Below are positions 14,667-55,659 of a stretch of DNA of 64,000 nucleotides, piece after piece (position 1 is the stretch's first letter; each line of letters starts with the position of its first letter). The stretch is from Limibacter armeniacum. Lineage in GTDB: Bacteria; Bacteroidota; Bacteroidia; Cytophagales; Flammeovirgaceae. The DNA is taken from positions 1,612,001 through 1,676,000 of the forward strand of contig NZ_JBAJNO010000008.1 of assembly GCF_036880985.1 (NCBI RefSeq). The letters run 5' to 3'. The position numbers were made by a program, and so were the translations under genes. The notes beneath the pieces are model-generated. The model ran no database searches and was not told the DNA's origin. It saw nothing but the letters and a program-made list of their open reading frames with translations.

Positions 14667-15149
14667 TGAATAGCGATAGTTAAATTCAGACATACTAGGT
14701 CTTTTGTATAAAACTCAAAACTTGCTGAAATATTTTTCCTGATAGCAGGATTCGCAGTTAAAGTATAATTTCTTGTATCAAATTAAGATTTTTTGTGCCT
14801 GTCTTCAAACTCATTTTAAGAAGATACGACGGAAGCGCTTTGTTTATAGGTGTATGCATGGATATATCAGACTAAAAGTTGGAAGATAATGCTCAATCTT
14901 CGAACAAGAATGGTCAAATCCTTGATTTCTGTGATGTATTTGATGGCATAAGAACTATTTTTGCACCTTAAAAGCTAATTCAGCTAAACAGGAATAGTAC
15001 AAAAGCGTTGCCAAAACACTTTTATTTTGCAACTGTCTGTGAGATGGAGAGAAAGTTTTAGGGAAGAGGATTATTACAATATGATAAGGTTATAATTTTA
15101 AAGCTGTGCTATATTTGTATGGGATTTTGAGTTGGACCCAAAATGATTG
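14667..15149. other. 480-bp divergent intergenic region
   Basis: Separates the small secreted protein from the FAD oxidoreductase. It holds the promoter listed at 15110, a further + strand TATTTTTG match at 14956-14963 with an imperfectly spaced TTTG upstream, and an imperfect hairpin near 15007-15032 (GTTGCcAAAA with TTTTGCAAC). No ORF with coding character; a short RNA from the 14956 element is possible but unsupported. Confidence 0.5.
15110..15117 (+). promoter_or_regulatory. -7 promoter element of the FAD oxidoreductase gene
   Basis: TATATTTG matches TAnnTTTG. Predicted start near 15124, leaving a leader of about 25 nt before the ATG at 15150. No clear -33 box. Confidence 0.6.
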
Positions 15150-51476: not shown

Positions 51477-53447
51477 TTAATTGATTGTTCTTTTGGAGAG
51501 GTAGCTGAAAGGGCCTCCTAAAAATGGCGGATAACCTGCGCCGAAAATAGCTCCAAGATTTCCTTCTTTTTCTGAGAATAGAAGGTTATTGTCTTGGCAT
51601 TCTTGCACTTCAGCAAGCATTTGCTGATGGAGGTACTCTCCAATATCAGCAACTTGTGAGTCATTGGTTTGGTCAAAAAGCTGTAGGACATCAGGGTTAC
51701 TTTTGAGTTTTCTGATTTTCTTATCCTTTTTATAAAGGTAAAAGCCTTTTAAGGTACTTTTACCCATAAATCTTTTGTCAGCCATCGAACTTAAAGATGC
51801 TTGAAAATCACCTTGCAGAAGTGAGTTTACAGCTTCAATGCCAAGCTCATCCATCCATTCAAATGGGGCGAGTGAAAACCCCTTAACTTTAGCTTGCTTA
51901 TCAATGTACGCTATGGAGTTTCCAGCTTGAAGCAATTGGAGTGCAGCTACAAAGTAACTCTTGAGCAGTTTTGGAACGAAAGCTTCATTTTGAGTGAAAA
52001 TGCAGTTTTTGCCTTGCAATGAACCAACTATCCAAGCTGTGCCTTTCGCCTTGTTGGTATTCGTTTCTGTTAAAATAATTTCCAGAAGCGGTGATTTGTC
52101 AACTGGAGATCCATACTGAAAACCTACCAAATCAGGGAGTTGTTGGTTCAGTTCAGAAAGCGGTTTACTAGGGTTGAAACAGGCAACGATTGTGTTTTCA
52201 GGTACGGAGACGGATGCCATAGACTGCTCATCAATAATCAGGAAGTCTAGGTTTTGAGGAACTTCTTTGTCGATGGTATGCGTGAGTTTTTCAAACATGG
52301 AGTTGGCTTTCTCCTGAGTCAGAATTCCTTTCCTTTTTTCGTTTTCAATAAGCTTTCCCAAACCCTTTTGAATATCATCAACCTCATGCTCATCAGCACT
52401 GAGGATGCATACATTACAATCTTTTTTTAGCAAGGAAAAAGACAGTTTGGTAGCATTGTCTTCATTGAGCCTTAACCCAATACTTTTTGGCGCTAAAGCT
52501 TTATCGTTATACGGATTTTTCTTTAAGTCTGTAATTGTGAAAAAGAGTTGGATCAGCTCTTGGGCTTCTGGTGTTTGAAGCAATTGACAGAACAGGTTTA
52601 TTTCATTTTCAATACATTGATCCAAGTTGTGTGAGGTGTTGAATTCAATACTGTCAATGATAAGTGGTAAGGCAGGGTACAATCCCTTGGCCTTTCGCTG
52701 AATGGTTTTGCGAGCAAGGTTAAATACTAGTTTTCTTGTCAGTGGGTTAGAATCCAAAAACTTGCTTAAGCCATTTCTTTTGTCCACTTTATTAAAAGTA
52801 CCAGAAGCTAGGTCTCCAACCATTTGGATCGCAGTTTCAGTCAATTGTGCTGGATTGCATAGTTTGTCAGCAAGTCCCAGTTGGTAGGCTTTTTTAGCAT
52901 AGACGTTTTTACCACTGAGCGTGATATCCAGTGCTTGTTGAGTACCCACTCTTTTCCAAAGTCTGATAGTTCCTCCCATACCTGGAAGTAGTCCCAGTTT
53001 AACCTCAGGAAGTGCCATCATTGTAGAAGGATCCTCAGAAACCACAATGGCAGTACAGCCTAATGAGATTTCCGTGCCACCTCCCATACATGCGCCATGA
53101 ATGGCAGATACAATGGGTTTGGGAAATAAGCTGAGTCTCTTGATCAGTTGATGTCCTTCCGCTGCGGCTTTTCTGACTTCTTCATTGGGTAGATCGATAA
53201 ATTGCTTGATATCAGCTCCTCCCATAAAACCTTTCTTTTTACTGATGAGCACGGCACCTATCAAAGTAGGGTCTGTCTCCACTTCGTCCAATAGACGATG
53301 GAAGTCAGCAGCAAGGGATATGTCAATAATATTGACCTCTGAGTCGGGTTTGTCAAAGCATAGGAAAGCAATGTCTCCTTTTCTTTCAAGGTAGATCAGT
53401 GAAGATTTTTCAGTCGTAGGATTGTGGTTATTCATTGTCGAGTACAT
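51477..53447 (-). CDS. FadJ/FadB-like protein: intact crotonase domain, degenerate dehydrogenase half
   Basis: 656 residues, laid out like the fatty-acid oxidation alpha subunit. The N-terminal enoyl-CoA hydratase domain is normal: KKGFMGGADIKQF, HGACMGGGTEISLGC (first catalytic Glu) and ALPEVKLGLLPGMGGT (second catalytic Glu). The dehydrogenase half is eroded: the NAD motif GxGxxG is replaced by KKSIGLRLNEDNATKLSFS near 325, and the catalytic His-phrase HFFSPVxxMPLVEI is FQYGSPVDKSPLLEII. The later phrase GFSLAPFEWMDELGIEAV still shows descent. So hydration without oxidation is the likely activity, unless it acts as a scaffold for a thiolase. No thiolase gene is adjacent. Start ATG 53447, alternative 53435. 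Confidence 0.85.
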   Translation of the reverse strand: MYSTMNNHNPTTEKSSLIYLERKGDIAFLCFDKPDSEVNIIDISLAADFHRLLDEVETDPTLIGAVLISKKKGFMGGADIKQFIDLPNEEVRKAAAEGHQLIKRLSLFPKPIVSAIHGACMGGGTEISLGCTAIVVSEDPSTMMALPEVKLGLLPGMGGTIRLWKRVGTQQALDITLSGKNVYAKKAYQLGLADKLCNPAQLTETAIQMVGDLASGTFNKVDKRNGLSKFLDSNPLTRKLVFNLARKTIQRKAKGLYPALPLIIDSIEFNTSHNLDQCIENEINLFCQLLQTPEAQELIQLFFTITDLKKNPYNDKALAPKSIGLRLNEDNATKLSFSLLKKDCNVCILSADEHEVDDIQKGLGKLIENEKRKGILTQEKANSMFEKLTHTIDKEVPQNLDFLIIDEQSMASVSVPENTIVACFNPSKPLSELNQQLPDLVGFQYGSPVDKSPLLEIILTETNTNKAKGTAWIVGSLQGKNCIFTQNEAFVPKLLKSYFVAALQLLQAGNSIAYIDKQAKVKGFSLAPFEWMDELGIEAVNSLLQGDFQASLSSMADKRFMGKSTLKGFYLYKKDKKIRKLKSNPDVLQLFDQTNDSQVADIGEYLHQQMLAEVQECQDNNLLFSEKEGNLGAIFGAGYPPFLGGPFSYLSKRTIN

Positions 53448-53692
53448 TGTCTACCTCTTTGCTTAAGGTGTTAAGCAGAAGAAGTGTATAAATTTGATAA
53501 GTTGGTTACATGAAAACTTGTTACTTATAAAGATAATGTACGACTTGAATAATTTTGCGAAAAAGTTGAAGTAAAATTCTACTAGAAAGAGAGGAGAATA
53601 GTGGGTAGAAAAAATGTGGGTTAAAAAGTGTTTTTAATTTTATTAAAAAATGGTTCCTATTTTTATAATCTAATTAAAAAAGTGAGCTGTTT

Positions 53693-53723
53693 TTTGGTTT
53701 ATATTGATTAGACTCTATATTTG
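53693..53723 (+). promoter_or_regulatory. strong Bacteroidota-type promoter of the 53.7-kb RNA
   Basis: TTTG (53693-53696), 19-bp spacer, TATATTTG (53716-53723): both elements at the consensus distance, the best promoter match in the window. Expected start about 53730. The nearest annotated gene starts 343 bp later. Confidence 0.8.
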
Positions 53724-53759
53724 CACTATCAAGAATTTTAAAATTGTACTAAAAGCTGA

Positions 53760-53840
53760 ATGAATTTTTATGGCGGACGTCTTGTTCTTGTAAATGTGCA
53801 CAGATTGAAATTTGAGCACAACTTGAACCCACTGCCATGA
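53760..53840 (+). CDS. possible 26-codon leader ORF 1
   Basis: ATG at 53760 to TGA at 53840; encodes a 26-residue peptide beginning MNFYGGRLVLV and ending HNLNPLP. No good ribosome-binding site. Its last codons cover the CCACTGC arm (53829-53835). Could be chance. Confidence 0.3.
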   Translation: MNFYGGRLVLVNVHRLKFEHNLNPLP

Positions 53841-53914
53841 ATAGGATCTTACAGAAATATGATTTATACATCTCAATATATTGTCCAGCATATGACCATG
53901 ATTATCCGTTGTAA
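53837..53914 (+). CDS. possible 25-codon leader ORF 2, Tyr-rich
   Basis: ATG at 53837 overlaps the stop of ORF 1 (ATGA). Peptide MNRILQKYDLYISIYC plus PAYDHDYPL has five Tyr, at residues 8, 11, 15, 19 and 23. The stop codon (53912-53914) lies in the right arm of the 53903-53920 hairpin, just before the antiterminator arm. Could be chance. Confidence 0.35.
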   Translation: MNRILQKYDLYISIYCPAYDHDYPL

Positions 53915-53971
53915 CGGATAGCAGTGGCCTGGCGGTTTATTGATTTGTATTAACTGTATATAATTGTATTT

Positions 53972-54015
53972 AGCCGGTCACTGCTGAGAAAAGAACAGCA
54001 ATGACCGGCTTTTTT
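53972..54015 (+). terminator. terminator of the structured RNA
   Basis: AGCCGGTCA pairs with TGACCGGCT, extended by TGCTG/CAGCA after one mismatch, loop of 9 nt, then TTTTTAT. Confidence 0.9.
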
Positions 54016-54072
54016 ATTTGTCTGTGGCCAACCTAAGCAGGCAACATTATTGACCTTAAACTTACTGATGCA

Positions 54073-54276
54073 ATGAAAGACAAATTCACTTTTGAGCTAA
54101 AGACTTCTGACGGGGTATTCCTGTCTCTGGATGTTTTAAATAGCGAAACTTTTGAAGACGCAAGAGAAGCCGTACAGAAACAGTGCCCTGGCGCTAGAAT
54201 CGTTTCGGTATTTGAATACAAAAACGGTCACATGGTGAAGCAACACAGTCATCGCATCAAGAAGGTGAAGGTCTAG
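54073..54276 (+). CDS. 67-residue basic protein, unknown
   Basis: Starts MKDKFTFELKTSDGVFLSLD; the middle TFEDAREAVQKQCPGARIVS suggests a helix followed by a strand, as in a compact alpha/beta fold; the tail is basic (KQHSHRIKKVKV). No membrane or signal sequence. The only promoter visible upstream is the one before the structured RNA, so expression probably depends on reading through the terminator at 53972, 57 bp before the start. Good coding character for its size, but no family recognised. Confidence 0.7.
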   Translation: MKDKFTFELKTSDGVFLSLDVLNSETFEDAREAVQKQCPGARIVSVFEYKNGHMVKQHSHRIKKVKV

Positions 54277-54285
54277 CCAAGGTCT

Positions 54286-55659
54286 TTATCTCTTAAACTC
54301 ATCCTTGTAAATTGGAATTCTGAAATTGACAAAGAGATTGGTTAGACTATTTTCAGAGTCAAACAGTTTCGAGATAAGAGAATAAGACCCTACAGATATA
54401 AATCGCCATCTACCTCCAATACCTACATTCAGTTTCTCTGCAACATTGTTGTAAGTGAGCGGTAAGTAGGTGCCCCAGCGTAACTTTTCGTATCTGGGAA
54501 TTACATTGAGCGCAAAGATATTGTCAAGCCTTTTTGATAGCAGATCGAAATCAGGAATAGTCAAGGCAGGGCTAACATGGAGATAGAAGTTATTCCCAAA
54601 ATTATAATCAAATTGCAGGATCAGGCTGAGTGGCAGTCTGATCCTGTAATCAGTATTGGTTTCTGATGTGATATCAAAAGTTTTTTCCAATGCATCAGCA
54701 GCTTCCTCCAGTGTGTGGATTCCTGCAAAATTTTCTGTAGCTGCCGAGTCAGCTGATACGGATATAGATTGAAGCTGCCTGCTGTCTTTATATTTGATAC
54801 TCCCTATATCATTGACTGTAAACCCAACCCTGAACTGGTAGTCATCGCCATATTTCTGATTCTGCGGACGGTATTCATATACAGCGCCAAAGTCAAGACC
54901 ATACCCTATACTTTTGAATAAGTCGACAGACTCGCCCTCAAATAAATCATTGATGGTATTGTCAAACCCGAAATCAATTTCAGCATTGATATTTTGCAGT
55001 TCTGAATTGATATCAGACTCTAAGCCGATGTTATCAATATCAAAAAAGGCTGAACCTGTACCTGAAAGTATCTTGAATTTACCTCCAAACTTGACCCTGT
55101 GATTTTCTGAAATATCAAATGACCTTGCGTAACCTGCACCAATTTCCATCCACATATTCAGGTAACCTGTTACAAACTCTCCATCAAGTACTTGTTGGGC
55201 AAGATCTGATGCTCGTCCGGATATAAGATCAAATAGCTCTAGCTCAGATACATTGTAAATGCCAAAAGCCCTTATTTCCCATGTGAGGGATACAGCCGAG
55301 CGGTCGTTTATGGCATAAAGGACTGATGGGAGTTGTATGTTACCTGTAATGAAAGCCCTGCTGTTATCTACCGTAAAGACATCATCAATGTTTTCAAGTC
55401 CACCTGCCTGAAGTTTATTGGCAATGTCAAAACTAGGCAAGTAATTATTTGAGAGTGCTGAGATGTTAGCACCTGCAACATTGATGTCTAGTTTGAAAGG
55501 TGTATCCGCAGTATTGGCTGGCTGATACCTCATACCTCTAATGCCGATATACCTGCTGGAAATATCTGGTTCAAACTGAGCTTGCAGCGGTAAATTGAAA
55601 ATTGCTAACAGTGCAGCAATGATGAGCAGTGAAGATTTGTTAGGCATGATAGCAGTCAT
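54286..55659 (-). CDS. DUF5723-type outer-membrane barrel protein
   Basis: 457 residues. Signal peptide core LLIIAALLAIFNLPLQAQ. The mature start FEPDISSRYIGIRGMRYQPANTADTPFKLDINVAGANI is the DUF5723 opening, followed by alternating strands with the expected aromatic girdles (KFKILSGTGSAFFDIDNIG, IGYGLDFGAVYEYRP, FRVGFTVNDIGSIKYKDS) and a final strand LFVNFRIPIYKDEFKR. Likely an outer-membrane barrel of unknown function, common in Bacteroidota and sometimes linked to envelope upkeep. Two possible starts (ATG 55659 and, four codons on, 55647). It converges on the 67-residue gene with only 9 bp between. Confidence 0.8.
   Translation of the reverse strand: MTAIMPNKSSLLIIAALLAIFNLPLQAQFEPDISSRYIGIRGMRYQPANTADTPFKLDINVAGANISALSNNYLPSFDIANKLQAGGLENIDDVFTVDNSRAFITGNIQLPSVLYAINDRSAVSLTWEIRAFGIYNVSELELFDLISGRASDLAQQVLDGEFVTGYLNMWMEIGAGYARSFDISENHRVKFGGKFKILSGTGSAFFDIDNIGLESDINSELQNINAEIDFGFDNTINDLFEGESVDLFKSIGYGLDFGAVYEYRPQNQKYGDDYQFRVGFTVNDIGSIKYKDSRQLQSISVSADSAATENFAGIHTLEEAADALEKTFDITSETNTDYRIRLPLSLILQFDYNFGNNFYLHVSPALTIPDFDLLSKRLDNIFALNVIPRYEKLRWGTYLPLTYNNVAEKLNVGIGGRWRFISVGSYSLISKLFDSENSLTNLFVNFRIPIYKDEFKR

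Follow-up and report, generated by a model that had tools for sequence, protein, structure and literature searches.

The region that we analysed in detail lies in a 64,000-nucleotide stretch of Limibacter armeniacum DNA (the window; positions below refer to it), where a predicted promoter, a long structured leader RNA with an intrinsic terminator and an ORF for a 67-residue protein follow one another on the + strand. There are no + strand ORFs of at least 40 aa between 53395 and 54072, which agrees with an earlier note on this DNA that described about 290 nt devoid of any sizeable gene. The 67-aa ORF (54073–54276) begins 62 nt after the end of the terminator stem-loop and is the only + strand gene before a convergent gene; since the latter ends at 54286, the 67-aa gene is the sole possible target in cis. 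Upstream, on the minus strand (51477–53447), is a 656-aa FadJ-like fusion with a strong enoyl-CoA hydratase domain. The NAD-binding 3HCDH_N part of this fusion falls under the Pfam cut-off (20.0 against 22 bits), and the protein may therefore be divergent or degenerate; a second FadJ-like copy, 27% identical, is present at G000:C8:2555786.

The predicted promoter (53693–53723, +) consists of TTTG at 53693–53696, a 19-nt spacer and TATATTTG at 53716–53723. This corresponds to the Bacteroidota consensus, TTTG near -33 and TAnnTTTG at -7, as it is given in two papers (PMC7366714; PMC9723704). The consensus promoter named in the earlier note is thus confirmed as a sequence match: of all -7-like boxes that the + strand carries between 53450 and 54072, it alone matches fully (10/10). 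Transcription would start near 53728, and we presume that the promoter is used in vivo. On both strands together, 464 kb contain 4 exact copies of TTTG-N19-TAnnTTTG, compared with 2 in a reversed-sequence control, which by arithmetic makes about 0.3% for a single gap; taken by itself, the -7 box shows no enrichment in the window, with 62 copies against 67 expected. Because the pattern is not much enriched in the genome and the box not at all in the window, the support for this promoter is local, namely a single full match where one would look for it. The + strand carries two more exact -7 boxes within 53448–53690, TAAATTTG at 53489 and TAATTTTG at 53550; the best -33 box matches just 2/4 positions for each, and additional leader transcripts could start from them.

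The leader RNA, for which we infer both ends, would extend from 53728 to 54016 (+). Folded as RNA from 53728 to 54020, it reaches -84 kcal/mol (z -5.10; equalled by 0/200 shuffles), and even without the terminator the z-score is -2.76 (again 0/200). The terminator is a stem-loop at 53972–54010 followed by TTTTTTATTT (53972–54019 in all, +), whose arms as a duplex are worth -26.0 kcal/mol and which presumably ends transcription in vivo. Its 5' arm, S2 (53973–53985, +), can pair either with the 3' arm of the terminator, S3, or with an upstream segment, S1 (53920–53933, +), and is thus shared between the terminator and an antiterminator. The S1:S2 duplex reaches -24.7 kcal/mol, a value attained by 2/5000 dinucleotide shuffles of the leader. 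Both the pairing of 53920 with 53973 and the strong terminator that uses the same arm had been proposed in the earlier note and are borne out by these computations, which show the helices and their excess over chance directly. A third pairing proposed there, CCACTGC (53829) with GCAGTGG (53921), did not hold up: an equal or better upstream partner for S1 arises in 764/5000 shuffles, and the probability of this alternative is 0.00 in each of the 39 model states printed.

To place these values in the genome, we scanned the window and 120 stretches of its contig (2.458 Mb, 31% of the genome), in which 667 strict terminators were each asked for the best complement to their 5' arm up to 250 nt upstream. 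S1:S2 is the strongest of all these complements, with the runner-up at -20.1 kcal/mol; the 667 terminators are partly non-independent, as one 49-nt hairpin recurs in repeat copies. By the ratio of duplex to hairpin strength, S1:S2 ranks 7th of 667, and of the six loci above it, five share a single 20-kb stretch (L094; three between 825 and 1518) and the sixth is L169. A pass over 464 kb with 105 strict terminators put S1:S2 first by both strength and ratio. The locus therefore has a terminator between promoter and gene together with a mutually exclusive antiterminator that exceeds chance.

A further element, which the earlier note had overlooked, is a predicted rod hairpin of 119 nt (53850–53968, +; -33.6 kcal/mol) that holds S1 in its 3' half and would act as an anti-antiterminator. 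The region 53842–53971 folds with a z-score of -2.84, and 1/200 shuffles folds as well. It is preceded by a 5' hairpin (53767–53841, +), the closing helix of which is reached by 52/5000 shuffles. In our free-energy models, which do not include kinetics, the RNA ending at 53992, with S2 made and S3 not yet made, divides between the rod (0.50) and S1:S2 (0.44), and in the full-length RNA the terminator has a probability of 1.00. When the sequence upstream of S1 was shuffled, the median of S1:S2 rose to 0.99, compared with 0.44 in the real RNA; values of 0.45 or less were seen in 13/1000 such shuffles, and in 21/1000 when the loop was shuffled as well. This hold on S1 is specific to the real sequence and is a direct result of the computation: upstream structure competes with the antiterminator. 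In these models, then, the leader holds both an antiterminator and a separate structure that restrains it, and this combination is our main argument for a switch over a plain small RNA. The regulated transcription switch proposed earlier is accordingly supported in its antiterminator and gains a restraint, but loses one of its three pairings.

Two short ORFs, likewise missed by the earlier note, are candidates for the sensor. ORF1 (53760–53840, +; 26 aa) opens at the first ATG of the deduced transcript, and ORF2 (53837–53914, +; 25 aa, 5 of them Tyr) overlaps it by ATGA and terminates 5 nt short of S1. Of 20000 shuffles, 264 contain two overlapping ORFs beginning at the first ATG, and 55 contain such a pair that also ends 0–15 nt before S1, the latter test having been framed after the ORFs had been seen. 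When a ribosome-sized mask was placed on the model RNA, the outcome depended on its position: S1:S2 was 0.27–0.72 for ORF2 codons 1–4, 0.79–0.99 for codons 5–23 and 0.00 for codons 24–26, and it was 0.06–0.50 at seven positions in ORF1. This dependence on position is a computed property of the model, and as such it follows the principle of leader-peptide attenuation. The five Tyr among the 24 codons after the ORF2 start are a weak excess (P 0.012, uncorrected), and the codon scores of ORF1 and ORF2 are uninformative. The ORF2 ATG, which sits inside the closing helix of the 5' hairpin, counts against a translation sensor. So do two amino-acid genes of the same genome, which served as controls and have no such leader: the stretch upstream of hisG has zero strict terminators, and pheA has one, 91 nt upstream, with a complement of just -8.2. 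Our best guess, a tentative one, is that translation of the leader is the sensor and that both short ORFs would be translated. An alternative sensor would be a protein, perhaps the 67-aa product itself, or a small molecule that binds the rod; any binder of its 5' half would have the same effect as a ribosome.

Based on these models, we consider that the leader is probably a transcription attenuator of the 67-aa gene, and we propose the following scheme. By default, the rod (53850–53968) would hold S1 and leave S2 free to pair with S3, so that the terminator forms and transcription stops near 54016. Anything that occupies or opens the rod's 5' half would free S1 to pair with S2 ahead of the synthesis of S3, and the polymerase would then continue into the 67-aa gene. 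The likeliest occupier would be a ribosome that pauses in the Tyr-rich ORF2, to which it would have passed from ORF1 through stop-start coupling. Once at the stop codon of ORF2, the ribosome would mask S1, and termination would be restored. A more elaborate version, which we regard as a long shot, is that this is a lineage-specific attenuator in which the two stop-start-coupled peptides steer the rod, the antiterminator and the terminator, and that the 67-aa protein is a stall-induced regulator, made only upon a stall in the Tyr-rich stretch.

The main competing reading is that 53728–54016 is a complete, free-standing small RNA that acts in trans, with leaky read-through or a separate weak promoter serving the 67-aa gene. 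The limits of the transcript suit this well, as a promoter and a strong terminator enclose a noncoding RNA that is long and structured with or without its terminator. According to the earlier note the 67-aa gene lacks its own promoter, and the + strand between 53724 and 54072 is indeed free of exact -7 boxes; a 5/6 box at 54013, whose -33 box is poor (1/4), qualifies this statement and could provide a weak promoter. Independent small RNAs are also numerous in Bacteroidota transcriptomes, with 85 in F. psychrophilum (PMC9723704). A plain small RNA, however, has no need for an antiterminator as strong as S1:S2, nor for a structure that restrains it, and the shuffles rarely yield either. We consider this reading rather unlikely, and prefer the attenuator.

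The pairing of S1 with S2 could also be a coincidence, or S1 a neutrally duplicated copy of the 3' arm of the terminator, in which case there would be no switch. S1 does resemble S3 (AGCAGTGGCCTGGC and AGCAATGACCGGC), repeated terminator-like hairpins occur elsewhere in the genome (L094), a strong complement can exist without a hold-back structure (L169), and no homologues were found that could show selection. On the other hand, two separate shuffle tests, for the antiterminator (2/5000) and for its restraint (13/1000), speak against chance, and the region is single-copy in the genome. This explanation seems to us improbable. A mobile repeat was rejected: the leader DNA matches once in its own genome, and the other own-genome match listed is 18 nt long (E 0.17).

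In leader-peptide attenuators of the trp, his and phe type, a short ORF precedes mutually exclusive antiterminator and terminator helices, and in transcriptional riboswitches terminator and antiterminator are exchanged within a long 5' leader. The present leader resembles the former in having a short ORF before exclusive helices and in a model that tracks the position of the ribosome. It differs in that an orphan small-protein gene lies downstream in place of an amino-acid operon, that two candidate short ORFs overlap, and that the antiterminator arm is held in a rod hairpin where a simple 1:2 hairpin would be usual. With transcriptional riboswitches it shares the helix exchange and the long leader, but there is no Rfam match over threshold and no known aptamer or ligand, and the predicted centroid structure consists of hairpins only, without a multi-branch junction. 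Like 6S RNA, it is a rod-like noncoding RNA with its own promoter; unlike 6S RNA, it has no Rfam match, its predicted rod has small internal loops only, and it carries a terminator and an antiterminator. We regard it as working like a known kind of attenuator, and as a credible orphan switch in front of an orphan protein.

Searches for known RNAs agree with the earlier statement that no known riboswitch class is recognisable here. No Rfam family reached its gathering score in the window (8 sub-threshold matches, the best with E 0.79), which leaves no match for a known riboswitch, a T-box or another Rfam leader, and no tRNA or tmRNA was found in the window either. The 6S covariance models gave no match in the window, with the reservation that RF00013 is perhaps blind in this order. 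At E up to 1, RF00013 detected nothing in 28 genomes of the order, the present one included, and responded in 5/14 controls; 6S RNA of this order may lie outside the model. For F. psychrophilum, leader-peptide attenuation has been inferred upstream of amino-acid operons in a study that lists 64 structured 5' elements (PMC9723704), and B. thetaiotaomicron was described as having long 5' UTRs with short ORFs resembling leader peptides, with 6S RNA found in Bacteroides (PMC7366714). Among open-licence papers on this bacterial group we found none on such an RNA and little on such leaders.

For the 67-aa ORF the codon score is 0.133. True fragments have a 5–95% range of -0.007 to 0.343, which includes this value; it exceeds 95% of stop-free off-frame fragments (0.05), though not 99% (0.288). 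Its product has no Pfam match over the cut-off (PepSY, E 0.24), no match up to E 1 in either NCBIfam or PHROGs, and only weak matches to PDB sequences (ubiquitin, E 0.046). A single-sequence structure model (mean pLDDT 82) predicts two strands, a helix and two strands. Fold comparisons with this model gave weak matches throughout: phage Dmd as the best PDB match (E 0.075), Z of at most 5.5 with ribosomal chains first in VIA-align, and E of 0.014 at best in a viral library. The model weakly resembles the small phage inhibitors Dmd and p56 and the RNA-polymerase-binding Gp2 and YkzG, and we draw on these weak resemblances solely for the idea of a stall-induced regulator.

Relatives of the locus were sought at several levels. 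In overlapping sets of 97, 390 and 395 genomes, the 67-aa protein retrieved only itself; it was not found in plasmids or phages, nor in GTDB contigs and IMG/VR, where the exact peptide patterns used can pick up close relatives only. The DNA of 53700–54290 had no match in plasmids. Against the 97 genomes, none of them marked as belonging to the same genus, the leader DNA gave only short matches among those listed at E up to 10, the best foreign one being 22 nt long (E 8.9e-4). Two covariance models (R1 and R2), for each of which this sequence was the sole input, found nothing below E 0.3 outside the own genome in 58 genomes. As for the neighbours, a DUF5723 protein matches 1 other genome of 28, twice, at 22–29%, and the FadJ-like protein has distant matches only outside its own genome; a scan of GTDB contigs with the latter, again by exact peptide patterns suited to close relatives only, gave no second example.

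If confirmed, the leader would be a compact switch with explicit arms that can be mutated, in a group on whose leaders of this type our search of open-licence papers found little, with read-through into the 67-aa gene as its presumed outcome, and it would offer a route to learning when this orphan small protein is needed. The procedure, a search for complements of terminator 5' arms followed by a hold-back test, is simple, and its first step ranked this locus strongest of 667.

Of the other terminators in the genome, L169 (minus strand, 14819–15005 in reverse-complement coordinates) has a complement of -22.7 with wider arms and precedes a 45-aa and a 125-aa ORF. It is the second of the two leaders on which the hold-back test was run, and we set it aside as a sibling switch: its real value of 0.957 equals the shuffled median (200 shuffles), meaning no hold-back structure. 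L094 (G000:C8:80001-100000) contains, at about 680–1520, a row of terminator-like hairpins spaced by a few hundred bases or less, several of them with near-identical arms; the row may be a repeat element or else a series of small transcripts.
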